From Nitrosopumilus piranensis (GTDB lineage Archaea > Thermoproteota > Nitrososphaeria > Nitrososphaerales > Nitrosopumilaceae), in NCBI RefSeq assembly GCF_000875775.1, contig NZ_CP010868.1, positions 496,001 through 560,000 on the forward strand: a DNA stretch of 64,000 nt, written 5' to 3'. Position numbers and translations under genes: made by a program. The notes under the pieces are model-generated. The model was not told the DNA's origin, searched no databases, and was given only the letters and a program-made list of their open reading frames with translations. Every line of letters begins with the position of its first letter. Positions within the stretch are counted from its first letter, which is position 1. Below are positions 2,618 through 28,824 of this stretch, one piece after another.

Positions 2618-3431
2618 ATGACATAAACATAGAAAATTTTTCGTAAAACAACTATTTTTCCAGTTCTATTAGCACTAGGATTCATGTTTACCACACCAAT
2701 GCTTTTGGATGTAGCAGCTCCTAGTGGAAATGGAATGTTGGCGTCCCTGACGTTGACTCATACCCGATATAATCACATCAATTCCAAAGCATCTTCAAGT
2801 TCAAAACATTCAGCAAACTGAGACTTTGAGATTTACTAATGCTTGGGGAAATATTGGTGTTGGAAACTTGGAATTTTTTCCAATAATACCTGGAGTTGAT
2901 GTTCCAGAAACTGAAACACAAGATTCTCTACAAAGACTATGTGATGAAAATGAAAATCTTGTTTGGACAGAAGTTGTAAGCGAATTTGAATATCATGCAG
3001 CACATAACCCTTGGTATATTGCCGATATAGGTGAATTTGCAGTTAGAGAATCAACACCAAATGTTTCAGGAGATATAGTCACTTTACCTGATGGAGTTAC
3101 TGCATCATCAATCAAAGTTGGATTTTGTATAATTGATGTATACAAAATTAACGGTGATAACTCTCCAACTTCTCAAAGAGTTTATTGGGATTGTGAAGTA
3201 ACTGAACAAGGAATTCAATCTAGATGGATCAACTATCAATCAACTGAAGGAAATGAAGTACCTATCACAAATCTTACACCAGGCGAATATTATCTAACAA
3301 ATGAATGGAATCCAACTGGTATCTTCATTGATGATGTAACAAATAACCAATCATGGATGAAATTTGAACTTACACGAGATAGCAATGGTAATGCAAAGGT
3401 TATAGAAATAGAGGGATTCTCTCCTGGATGA
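2618..3431 (+). pseudogene. Lysyl-oxidase-like exported protein, broken by several frameshifts
   Basis: The longest intact piece (TTG at 2826 to 3431, 201 residues) matches a lysyl-oxidase fold. It has LRFTNAWGNIGVGNLEFFP near the start, the His-containing YHAAHNPWYI, VGFCIIDVYKI, then YWDCEV and GIQSRWINY, and TNLTPGEYYLTNEWNP. The same protein continues upstream in other frames. PVLLALGFMFTTPMLLDVAA (a signal peptide) is in the frame of 2645. KWNVGVPDVDSYP is in the frame of 2728. IITSIPKHLQVQNIQQTET is in the frame of 2826. Joining them needs one missing base near 2727-2730 (a GGAAATGG run) and one near 2764-2768. The ATG at 2618 is followed by stops unless another base is restored. At the 3' end the frame of 3428 reads NPDGSTPRLCGDLLE, which may be the true tail. 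It is a decayed gene or an error-prone assembly stretch. Confidence 0.62.
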
Positions 3432-3596
3432 ATCCTGATGGCTCAACCCCTAGATTATGCGGTGACTTACTAGAAACAACTACTCTTTTTTTCTTTTTTA
3501 AAATTGAAAATAGATACTTAAACAATTCTACTCTTATTCAAACTTATGATTTATCAGGATCCTTTTTTAATAATTTTCACATAGTTCTATCACCAA

Positions 3597-3661: not shown

Positions 3662-4360
3662 TTAGTCTTTTTTTTCTTCAGATTCATTTGATGTATCTGA
3701 TTTAATTTCAGTAGATTCCTCTTTTTCTTCAATCTCTTTTGATTTTTCTACTGGCTCAGAATATTCAGAATCTTCTTCAATCTTATCAATATCTGATAAT
3801 TCTTCTATGGTATTGGAATCATCAGTGTCTGTTGTGTCTGTAAACGTGGTTTCCTTTTCCTTTTTCCTCTTTGTCATCTGCTTAACCACCATAATTCCAA
3901 TAACAATTGCAATTATGACATAATTAATTGGCGGTTTTAGTAACTGTGTAATATATCCTACTTGTGGAAGTGTATATGCTACTTTTCCAATGTATTCTTT
4001 TTCAGTAATCGGAAAATCAGTACCTGGAATTGATGCTGGGTTTGCATCTCCTTTTGTCCTAATTGTTCTGGGATCATCATCTAAGATAGATGCAACTCTA
4101 TGTACAATCACTCTATTATGATCAGAAGGTCGATTAAATACAATAATATCTCCTACTTCAATTTCTTCAAACGGTTCATGCCCTTGAACAATCAAAACAT
4201 CATACACTTCTAAAACAGGTATCATGCTGCCACTTGCAACTACATAAAATGGATTTTGTGTCCCAAATGCAATTTGCAGACCAATCCAAATTACCAAAAC
4301 TCCAACTGCAACGATAACAATATCTTTGATGATTCCTTTTGAAATAGACTTTTTTGTCAA
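3662..4360 (-). CDS. Signal peptidase I, archaeal/eukaryotic Sec11 type
   Basis: Cleaves signal peptides from proteins exported through Sec. An N-terminal membrane helix (about residues 12-32) is followed by the catalytic serine in VASGSMIP (Ser45). The His that replaces the bacterial lysine is in VIVHRVA (His87), and TKGDANP has the conserved Asp (about 105). A second helix spans about 146-160. The 232-residue protein then carries a ~70-residue tail rich in Glu, Asp, Ser and Thr, which I do not know from the minimal family. With the active site outside the membrane, the tail's side depends on the second helix; it would be cytoplasmic if that helix crosses. Clear family call; tail function unknown. 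Confidence 0.88.
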   Translation of the reverse strand: MTKKSISKGIIKDIVIVAVGVLVIWIGLQIAFGTQNPFYVVASGSMIPVLEVYDVLIVQGHEPFEEIEVGDIIVFNRPSDHNRVIVHRVASILDDDPRTIRTKGDANPASIPGTDFPITEKEYIGKVAYTLPQVGYITQLLKPPINYVIIAIVIGIMVVKQMTKRKKEKETTFTDTTDTDDSNTIEELSDIDKIEEDSEYSEPVEKSKEIEEKEESTEIKSDTSNESEEKKD

Positions 4361-5641: not shown

Positions 5642-5746
5642 AATACTAAATCCTCTAATTTTCTAAAAAATTCACAATTTCTATAATTCTCTCATTTGAG
5701 TGAAATTTGATAAATGAATAAAAACACAACCCTGAGAGTAGTTTAG

Positions 5747-5818
5747 GGGCCGGTGGTTTAGGGGTATAATGCCTCGTTCGCAACGAGGATGTCGAGGGTT
5801 CGATTCCCTCCCGGTCCA
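5747..5818 (+). tRNA. tRNA-Ala (CGC anticodon)
   Basis: Acceptor GGGCCGG pairs with CCGGTCC and includes the G3:U70 wobble pair that marks tRNA-Ala. The anticodon stem CCTCG/CGAGG closes loop TTCGCAA, giving anticodon CGC. The T arm is GAGGG-TTCGATT-CCCTC. Discriminator is A at 5818; CCA is not encoded. Confidence 0.95.
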
Positions 5819-5860
5819 CTTTCCAGAAACTAATATACATAAACACCGAATATTATCTGC

Positions 5861-6220
5861 ATGCAAGTATTTGATGGCAAAAAAGCAGCACAAGAATACA
5901 TGTCAAAACACACTTTGGCATTTTCAACTCCAGAATTAACCCTAATGAGGTTTGCATTTTGGTTAGGTGATTCTGTTCCAGATCCTAACAATGAAGGCAA
6001 AGGTATCCCAAGAATGATGACCTTTCTAACAGAACAAGATTTTGAACCTGTTTTGATTGATGATGAAAAATATGAACCATCTGGAGCTGTTAAAAGTTCT
6101 GGATTAATGGGAAATGCTTACACTGAACAAAAAACTGATGGAAAATTTTGCTCAGAGTGTGGTACTAGCCTTTCAGCAACAGCAAAGTTTTGTCCTGAAT
6201 GTGGAACAACACAAGAATAA
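5861..6220 (+). CDS. Small protein with C-terminal zinc ribbon
   Basis: 119 residues. The N-terminal ~75 residues (from MQVFDGKKAAQEYMSKHT) form a compact domain I do not recognise. A short linker leads to a C-terminal zinc ribbon CSECGTSLSATAKFCPECGT. It starts 42 bases after tRNA-Ala and is convergent with another zinc-ribbon gene, leaving only 20 bases between stops. The same ribbon style recurs at the ends of the proteins at 4401-5168 and 6241-6777, suggesting a shared binding partner or a common module. Function unknown. Confidence 0.75.
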   Translation: MQVFDGKKAAQEYMSKHTLAFSTPELTLMRFAFWLGDSVPDPNNEGKGIPRMMTFLTEQDFEPVLIDDEKYEPSGAVKSSGLMGNAYTEQKTDGKFCSECGTSLSATAKFCPECGTTQE

Positions 6221-7397: not shown

Positions 7398-7631
7398 CAT
7401 TCCACCATACCCAGGATCAATTTTTTGTTTTGGATTTAGTGATGTGTCATGGTGGCATGGTTTGTTGCAAACAGGACAAAATTTTCTATCCATTACTATG
7501 CATTGACAGATATGATTTTTCACATAAGCTTGTGCAGCTTGATTCCATTCTCCTGTACCATTACAATATACACATACATTCGAACCACTGGAACCTGCCC
7601 CTTTGCAAAAGTCACATACGTCGTCTGTCAT
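7368..7631 (-). CDS. DnaJ-type zinc-finger protein
   Basis: 87 residues with two CxxCxGxG-like motifs, CDFCKGAG and CVYCNGTG, the repeat that binds zinc in the central domain of DnaJ. A second Cys/His cluster follows (CQC, CPVCNKPCHH). There is no J domain, so it is a stand-alone zinc finger that might bind unfolded protein or act as an adaptor. It belongs to the local run of zinc-binding proteins. Function is inferred only from the motif. Confidence 0.72.
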   Translation of the reverse strand: MTDDVCDFCKGAGSSGSNVCVYCNGTGEWNQAAQAYVKNHICQCIVMDRKFCPVCNKPCHHDTSLNPKQKIDPGYGGMSEREVTVMT

Positions 7632-7725
7632 ATCTATTATTGTGGTAGGTTGGTTTTTGAATCAATATATTTGAAAAGATTGACTAACTCAACGCATAAT
7701 AGACTGCAGGCAATAAAATTTTCAG

Positions 7726-9126
7726 ATGACATATGATACTGTAATTGTTGATTCCCATGTCATGTTTCCGCAAGGAATGGAGAATAAAAACATCGTAATT
7801 GATGAAGGAAAAATTGTGGGCTTAACTAATGATTTGCCATCTTGTGATAATAAAATCAATGGGAATGGACTGATTTCAGTTCCTGGTCCTATTGATACTC
7901 ATGTACATTATGGTGTGTATTCTCCAATCAACGAGGCTGCAAAGACTGAATCACATGCTGCTGCCATTGGTGGGGTTACAACTATGATGAGAATGCTCAG
8001 ATTAGGAGATCCTTTTTCTAGTTCATTACAATCTCAGCTTGATGCTGCATCTCAAAACCATTACGTTGATTATGCAATACACGCATCTATTTTTACTTCT
8101 CAACAAATCAATGAAATGGATTATTGTGTAAACAAAGGAATCACTTCGTTCAAAATTTACATGAATCTTGGTGGTGAAATTGGCCATGTTTACATGGATA
8201 TGCCACCTAATTCTTCTGAACTTGTTGCAGCTAATGTGGATGTAACTAATGAAATTGTTGAACAGACAGTAAAAACTGCGGCTTCTCTTGGTTGTCCAGT
8301 TTTGGTTCATGCAGAAGACTATGAATCATGTGGATGTGGAATTAAAACTGCTAGAGAGAAAAAACAAGATGGATTATCTGCATGGTCTGAAAGTCGTTCT
8401 CCTGAATTTGAAGCAAAAGCAATCAAGACTGTATCAAAATTTGGACGTGACTACGATTGTGTCATCTATTTTGTTCATATTGGTTCAGAAAAAGCTCTAA
8501 AACAAATTCAAGAAGAAAGAAAACTGGGGACAAAAATTTTTGTGGAAACTTGTCCTCACTATTTGACATTGTCTTATGAAAAACAAGATGGGTATCTTGC
8601 TAAAGTTATGCCTCCAATAAGAACCGAAAATGATCGAAAGGCAATATGGAATGCACTTTCTGCTAACCAAATTGACACCATAGGAACAGACCATGTTGCA
8701 AACCAGCTTAAACTCAAATTGGGTGGAGATGATGTCTGGTCCGCATTAGCCGGTTTTCCAGGAATTGGCACTGTACTTCCCATATTGCTTAATGATGGTG
8801 TGAATAAAAACAAAATTTCCTTAGAACAATTTATTCGATTTACAAGTCAAAATGCAGCAAAAATCTTTGGAATGTTTCCCCAAAAAGGAACGCTAGAAAA
8901 AAATTCTGATGCTGATGTGACCATGATTGATTTGAAAAAAGAGAAAAAAGTTTCTTCTGAATTGTTTGGAGGTTTTTCAGATTATATTGTCTATGAAGGA
9001 CGAATTCTCAAGGGGTGGCCTGTTAAAACAATTGTACGAGGAGAATTAATTGCTGAAGATTTTGAAGTGATAGGAAAACTTGGACATGGGCAACTTGTAA
9101 AAAGAAATATTGGTAAAAATTCTTAG
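7726..9126 (+). CDS. Amidohydrolase of the dihydropyrimidinase/hydantoinase/dihydroorotase group
   Basis: 466 residues, a cyclic-amide hydrolase with a binuclear metal site. The metal ligands are visible: DTHVHYG (about 58-62), the lysine expected to be carboxylated in SFKIYMN (Lys143), VLVHAED, VHIGS and GTDHVAN. Length and the position of the lysine fit hydantoinase/dihydropyrimidinase better than the short dihydroorotases. A pyrimidine-biosynthesis role cannot be excluded, since no other pyr gene is next to it. It appears to be transcribed alone. Confidence 0.82.
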   Translation: MTYDTVIVDSHVMFPQGMENKNIVIDEGKIVGLTNDLPSCDNKINGNGLISVPGPIDTHVHYGVYSPINEAAKTESHAAAIGGVTTMMRMLRLGDPFSSSLQSQLDAASQNHYVDYAIHASIFTSQQINEMDYCVNKGITSFKIYMNLGGEIGHVYMDMPPNSSELVAANVDVTNEIVEQTVKTAASLGCPVLVHAEDYESCGCGIKTAREKKQDGLSAWSESRSPEFEAKAIKTVSKFGRDYDCVIYFVHIGSEKALKQIQEERKLGTKIFVETCPHYLTLSYEKQDGYLAKVMPPIRTENDRKAIWNALSANQIDTIGTDHVANQLKLKLGGDDVWSALAGFPGIGTVLPILLNDGVNKNKISLEQFIRFTSQNAAKIFGMFPQKGTLEKNSDADVTMIDLKKEKKVSSELFGGFSDYIVYEGRILKGWPVKTIVRGELIAEDFEVIGKLGHGQLVKRNIGKNS

Positions 9127-27662: not shown

Positions 27663-28172
<510 letters not shown>

Positions 28173-28287: not shown

Positions 28288-28824
28288 ATGCCAATAGATG
28301 AAAAATTTGTTGAAAATCTAGAAGTCGTTGGAAAGACATTGCACTCAGATGGTGAAAATAAACACTTTATCTGGGGTAAAGGCAGAACTGACGGTGAAGC
28401 ATTTTCAGATGAAAATGTCAAAGCAGCATATGAAGCAAGAGGCGAAGAACAAGTTCCTCTTGGAATTCATGGTACAACTGTAGCAGTTGACTGGGATTCT
28501 TGTGTTGCAGCAGGTTCTTGTATGAGTGTCTGTCCTGTTCAAACCTTCCAGTGGTATAGAACTGAAAAAGATATTCCTGCAAAAGATGTTCTTAATGCAA
28601 CTTTTGATGGAACTGGTTTGACTGAACAAGATGAACGTCTAGATTACACAGATAAATCAATGCCAATCAGAGAACATGATTGTACACAATGTATGGCTTG
28701 CCAAGAAGCATGTCCTACACATGCAATCTTGATTGAACCATCTTACCAAGAGTATCACGAAAAAGCTGATGGCTCTTATGTAAAAATGGAATCAACCTCT
28801 GTAAATCCACACGCACACGATTAA
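28288..28824 (+). CDS. Ferredoxin, paralogue of the preceding gene
   Basis: 178 residues, strongly similar to the protein at 27681. First motif CVAAGSCMSVCPVQ has Ala where ferredoxin 1 has Asp; the second, CTQCMACQEACPTH, is a full [4Fe-4S] site. The Asp-to-Ala change could alter the potential or stability of the first cluster. The C-terminus is longer by about 15 residues and His-containing (NPHAHD). Independent promoter and T-rich terminator suggest the two are expressed separately. Confidence 0.9.
   Translation: MPIDEKFVENLEVVGKTLHSDGENKHFIWGKGRTDGEAFSDENVKAAYEARGEEQVPLGIHGTTVAVDWDSCVAAGSCMSVCPVQTFQWYRTEKDIPAKDVLNATFDGTGLTEQDERLDYTDKSMPIREHDCTQCMACQEACPTHAILIEPSYQEYHEKADGSYVKMESTSVNPHAHD

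Follow-up and report, generated by a model that had tools for sequence, protein, structure and literature searches.

Lysyl oxidases have already been described in thaumarchaea: a 2015 study reported them and proposed their transfer from bacteria (PMC4448552), and Nitrosopumilus lysyl oxidase sequences were aligned in 2019 (PMC6452851), which weakens the suggestion of the initial annotation that the mere occurrence of such an enzyme in an ammonia oxidiser of this group would be of note. The archaeal enzyme that has been assayed, which is haloarchaeal, oxidises many primary amines in a copper-dependent manner, with taurine among the best (PMC6452851), although in the literature the enzymes of Euryarchaeota and of thaumarchaea form separate groups. 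The papers searched gave no activity measurements for the lysyl oxidases of Nitrosopumilus. Human LOXL2 (PDB 5ze3) is also matched by a profile built from ten intact archaeal copies (E = 4.9e-6), and in this alignment the copper motif and both cofactor residues, lysine and tyrosine, fall in register. Overall, the similarity is low, and the animal enzyme has additional domains and serves in matrix cross-linking.

The locus described here belongs with the Nitrosopumilus lysyl oxidases (e.g. that of N. salaria BD31; PMC6452851 and PMC4448552), with which it shares the gene family, the genus and, in its ancestral form, the domain layout, composed of a signal peptide, copper histidines, and the cofactor lysine and tyrosine. 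The N. salaria gene (locus L096 of genome G064) also occupies the same chromosomal slot. Unlike these genes, the copy studied here is multiply broken, lacks two copper ligands and is missed by the Pfam model. It is very probably the recently decayed pseudogene (positions 2618–3483) of an exported, copper-dependent lysyl-oxidase-like amine oxidase; no report of it was found in the paper library searched.

The remnant and its intact orthologues

The window, the whole 64,000-base stretch analysed, covers positions 496001–560000 of the closed Nitrosopumilus piranensis genome (1,713,078 bases). The remnant was taken to run from the start codon to where the stop once stood, and end-to-end alignment gives 84–87% DNA identity with the intact orthologues of two congeneric genomes, G066 (SCGC AAA799-D11) and G077. 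Its left neighbour, an HpaB-family gene that we take to encode 4-hydroxybutyryl-CoA dehydratase, is the constant left flank of the slot and is present in 90 of 95 congeners. The features of the locus, with the basis of each assignment, are the following:

989–2515, + strand: left flank, HpaB-family gene (Pfam PF11794/PF03241)
2600–2617, + strand: leader region, AAGGTATGAAC missing (upstream sequences of carriers compared)
2618–3483, + strand: pseudogene of an exported lysyl-oxidase-like protein (end-to-end alignment with the G066 and G077 orthologues)
2618–2733, + strand: signal-peptide region from the former start codon on, interrupted by stops at codons 3 and 5 (comparison with relatives)
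2712–2713, + strand: in-frame loss of 3 bases where the signal peptide ends (alignment to intact orthologues)
2733–2756, + strand: Gly/Asn-rich linker with two frame-changing deletions (frame compared with intact copies)
2757–3428, + strand: main open piece of 224 codons, remnant of the catalytic domain (homology)
2991–3020, + strand: copper site remnant YHAAHNPWYI (FHxxHNHWHI in intact copies)
3226–3240, + strand: cofactor-forming tyrosine segment (DQYHQS in intact copies) with a 6-base deletion (alignment)
3332–3333, + strand: in-frame 3-base deletion (alignment to intact orthologues)
3428–3483, + strand: C-terminal piece NPDGSTPRLCGD, in another frame than the main piece (translation and alignment)
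3662–4360, − strand: right flank, signal peptidase S26-like gene (Pfam PF10502)

Intact copies occur in 13 of the 95 genomes of the genus (about one in seven), G066 and G077 among them, and leave the ancestral state of the remnant in no doubt. They encode proteins of 275–323 residues consisting of a signal peptide, in most cases a Gly/Asn-rich linker, whose length differs among species, and a catalytic domain that carries the motifs FHxxHNHWH, KVGFC (KVTFC in one type) and DQYHQS. The lysyl oxidase profile PF01186 matches five intact copies at 29–54 bits (cut-off 20.4; E from 7.5e-7 to 1.9e-14) and is above cut-off in 15 of the 95 genomes. Against the window copy it gives no match at E ≤ 1, and a PF01186 search of the organism's own genome returned nothing, the control profiles being silent too. 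A profile of the intact copies alone finds both the main piece (E = 4.5e-101) and the signal-peptide piece (E = 5.5e-12), and a family profile to which the window piece had been added does the same (E = 5.9e-116 and 2e-6, respectively); the window hits of the latter lie in two frames with stops inside. The PF01186 family call of the initial annotation therefore stands only by way of homology to the intact orthologues, since Pfam is silent on the window copy. With the family profile, 16 carriers were counted in the 95 genomes, this one included. The 224-residue piece has a single place in its own genome and clear homologues in congeners, and homology and family-profile searches of the same genome found no second oxidase copy.

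Lesions in the reading frame and the active site

Three-frame translation distributes the remnant over three frames, collinear with the intact orthologues: a signal-peptide-like stretch lies in one frame, which is also that of the NPDGSTPRLCGD piece, the short VPDVDSYP piece in a second, and the 224-codon stretch in the third. There is no single open frame with a signal peptide. The view of the initial annotation that the pieces of one exported protein are all present in different frames is thus borne out, their order being that of the intact orthologues, and the C-terminal piece that it had suspected is confirmed, beyond a break at 3430/3431; the alignment to relatives' proteins and the same-locus comparison that it had proposed revealed intact orthologues in the same slot.

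Compared with G066 and G077, the window copy has four frame-changing deletions, at about 2733/2734, about 2755/2756, 3430/3431 and about 3464/3465, a number that agrees with the upper estimate made beforehand, and three deletions that keep the frame, of 3, 6 and 3 bases. The two linker breaks had been anticipated at 2728 and 2765, about 40 bases apart, and are in fact about 22 bases apart. One-base losses, as originally supposed, explain three of the four frame changes, but other lesions had been overlooked: two stop codons at 2624–2626 (codon 3) and 2630–2632 (codon 5), where the relatives read MTYTKKIF and the window MT*T*KIF, the in-frame deletions, the loss of the stop codon used by the relatives, and the loss of histidines. 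Upstream of the gene, the AAGGTATGAAC leader common to the four nearest clade members is absent, and the TATATTAA box just before it is kept.

None of the break sites is in a long homopolymer. Phase variation, in which reversible slippage would turn the gene on and off, would agree with the presence of several small indels and with the variable length of the Gly/Asn linker between species, but it is extremely improbable, since the breaks are outside homopolymer tracts and slippage would revert neither the nonsense codons nor the ligand substitutions nor the 6-base loss.

The main open piece retains 83–86% protein identity to its G066 and G077 counterparts. Its copper site reads HNPWY instead of HNHWH, so that two of the three copper-binding histidines of the HxHxH core that characterises lysyl oxidases are replaced (3009–3011 and 3015–3017). 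According to PMC4448552, all three histidines of this core are essential, and among those of the wider motif the first alone can be dispensed with. The cofactor lysine is kept (KVGFC); the tyrosine segment is disrupted by the 6-base deletion, owing to which the identity of the tyrosine in the window copy depends on the alignment. Altogether, the window copy breaks nine of the 60 alignment columns that are invariant in ten intact copies; in a leave-one-out control, an intact copy breaks 0–4 of the columns that do not vary among the others, mostly through mild changes. This comparison covers the main open frame only, so base losses in the assembly would explain at most the deleted columns, not the substitutions.

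The open piece of 201–224 residues might instead be a repurposed protein with a new, copper-free function, as its 224 codons are still open and its ratio of nonsynonymous to synonymous changes is low. We regard this as very unlikely, given that an internal TTG is its sole start, that no signal peptide is in frame, that residues invariant in all intact copies are changed, and that this form was found in no other genome searched.

Sequence accuracy and age of the decay

If the gene were intact in the organism, the breaks would be sequencing or assembly errors, an explanation compatible with the single missing bases at three of the four frame changes and with the modest missense changes outside the active site. 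The two nonsense codons and the two copper-ligand substitutions are, however, base changes and not missing bases, in-frame losses of 3 and 6 bases are also present, and the break sites are not homopolymers. Nor is anything else broken in the 64-kb window, which is the span of the error control: for 95 ORFs of a syntenic 100-kb region of G077, a count that includes overlapping antisense ORFs, the match to the window spans 90% or more of the ORF; the oxidase alone is frame-broken on the window side. The remaining short or double matches are explained by the ends of the window, by divergence at termini, by a tandem pair or by antisense ORFs. With about 95 other ORFs of the window unbroken, error is a highly doubtful explanation. 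Decay is favoured by the several independent kinds of lesion, the intact orthologues in the same slot, and the loss of copper ligands together with the deletion in the cofactor segment. The initial annotation had left decay, phase variation and local error side by side; the last two are disfavoured by the nonsense codons, the copper-site substitutions, the breaks outside homopolymers and the clean neighbourhood.

Some other features of the window were also noted. The tandem genes at 27681–28172 and 28288–28824 are related (proteins about 66% identical) and conserved in G077. A 95-residue ORF at 7449–7736, with no Pfam match, has a G077 counterpart split over two frames, pointing to a broken gene or to a sequence error in G077. 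On the minus strand, the ORFs REGIEPSTSSLRTRHY... at 5681–5893 are antisense to a tRNA-Ala gene (5747–5819) and so are probably not genes.

The branch leading to the window copy carries 27 synonymous and 15 nonsynonymous changes, compared with 15.5 and 7.5 for G077 and 26.5 and 8.5 for G066. The nonsynonymous excess is not significant (24:34 versus 27:58, p = 0.29, counts based on pairwise distances), and a strong shift to neutral evolution is not supported. As the substitution ratios indicate only mild relaxation, the decay looks recent, and the simplest reading of the sequences is that most of this branch was passed under selection. For so many lesions the nonsynonymous ratio is low, which implies either that the decay is recent or that errors may account for a few of the small deletions; the many indels relative to missense changes are a residual oddity.

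The ancestral protein, as the intact orthologues show, had a signal peptide and a Gly/Asn-rich linker in addition to a catalytic domain, in which three copper histidines and the cofactor lysine and tyrosine were present. Its probable reaction, by analogy with the assayed archaeal enzyme (PMC6452851), was the extracellular oxidation of primary amines, with aldehyde, H2O2 and ammonia as products. Selection was then very probably lost in the window lineage, with nonsense changes, small deletions and active-site substitutions following.

The oxidase slot across the genus

In all 16 carriers the oxidase is directly downstream of the HpaB-family gene. At about 20 loci from oxidase-free congeners, what comes after this gene is mostly the signal peptidase gene or another gene for an exported protein; two of the loci examined have other neighbours there, and tblastn found no oxidase remnant at these loci. 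The oxidase is optional in the genus, with one fixed slot and a patchy presence. The slot often holds a different exported-protein gene (QTPFRDTAGLTLNGIEWCEENYQLYYF...), whether the oxidase is there or not (L086, L081, L082, L084, L088 and L089); this gene sits downstream of the oxidase or the dehydratase gene and was not seen in the slot of the window.

Two further broken copies carry different lesions, one late stop in G084 (isolate PfA; L078:3959-4900) and a frame change in G081 (isolate HM_N; L079:5809-6665); both genomes are metagenome assemblies, in which single errors are possible. Mapped onto a dehydratase gene tree, the distribution of the oxidase requires 13 changes, 11 of them forced by well-supported branches. 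Change counts alone cannot tell gain from loss, and the oxidase was probably lost many times in the genus. The dehydratase tree pairs G000 with G084 (support 94/97), and the oxidases of these two genomes are of different types; forcing them together is rejected by the AU test (p = 0.0004), for which the pair was picked after the dehydratase tree had been seen. The G084 oxidase is 92% identical to those of G066 and G077 over its first 105 bases and 67–68% identical over the rest, a drop that would follow from an exchange of the mature part beyond the signal peptide. This pattern suggests that the G084 oxidase is a chimaera, with recombination at the linker between oxidase types of one slot. Carriage of the oxidase by phages was also considered; no relative turned up when viral contigs were scanned.

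Tentatively, the slot may be a fixed site at which oxidase alleles are swapped by recombination among Nitrosopumilus and repeatedly lost, under selection that would fluctuate between the supply of ammonia from organic amines and the cost in copper and H2O2, the window holding a losing allele; we consider this scenario possible rather than probable. For an ammonia oxidiser, release of ammonia outside the cell would be useful and H2O2 would be costly. According to PMC6593220, marine members largely lack catalase genes.

The pseudogene is real and recent, and it belongs to a known family whose gene is optional and often absent in the genus. As an ordinary gene loss it has little weight alone, other than as a record of an optional enzyme repeatedly dropped, and the fact that the gene is dead here calls for caution against inferring the metabolic trait from this genome. 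The pattern across the genus suggests an optional exported copper amine oxidase, of putative activity, with a history of many losses. It also leads to testable questions: whether amines such as taurine or polyamines supply ammonia to strains whose copy is intact, and whether oxidase-free strains are more tolerant of H2O2 or of copper limitation.
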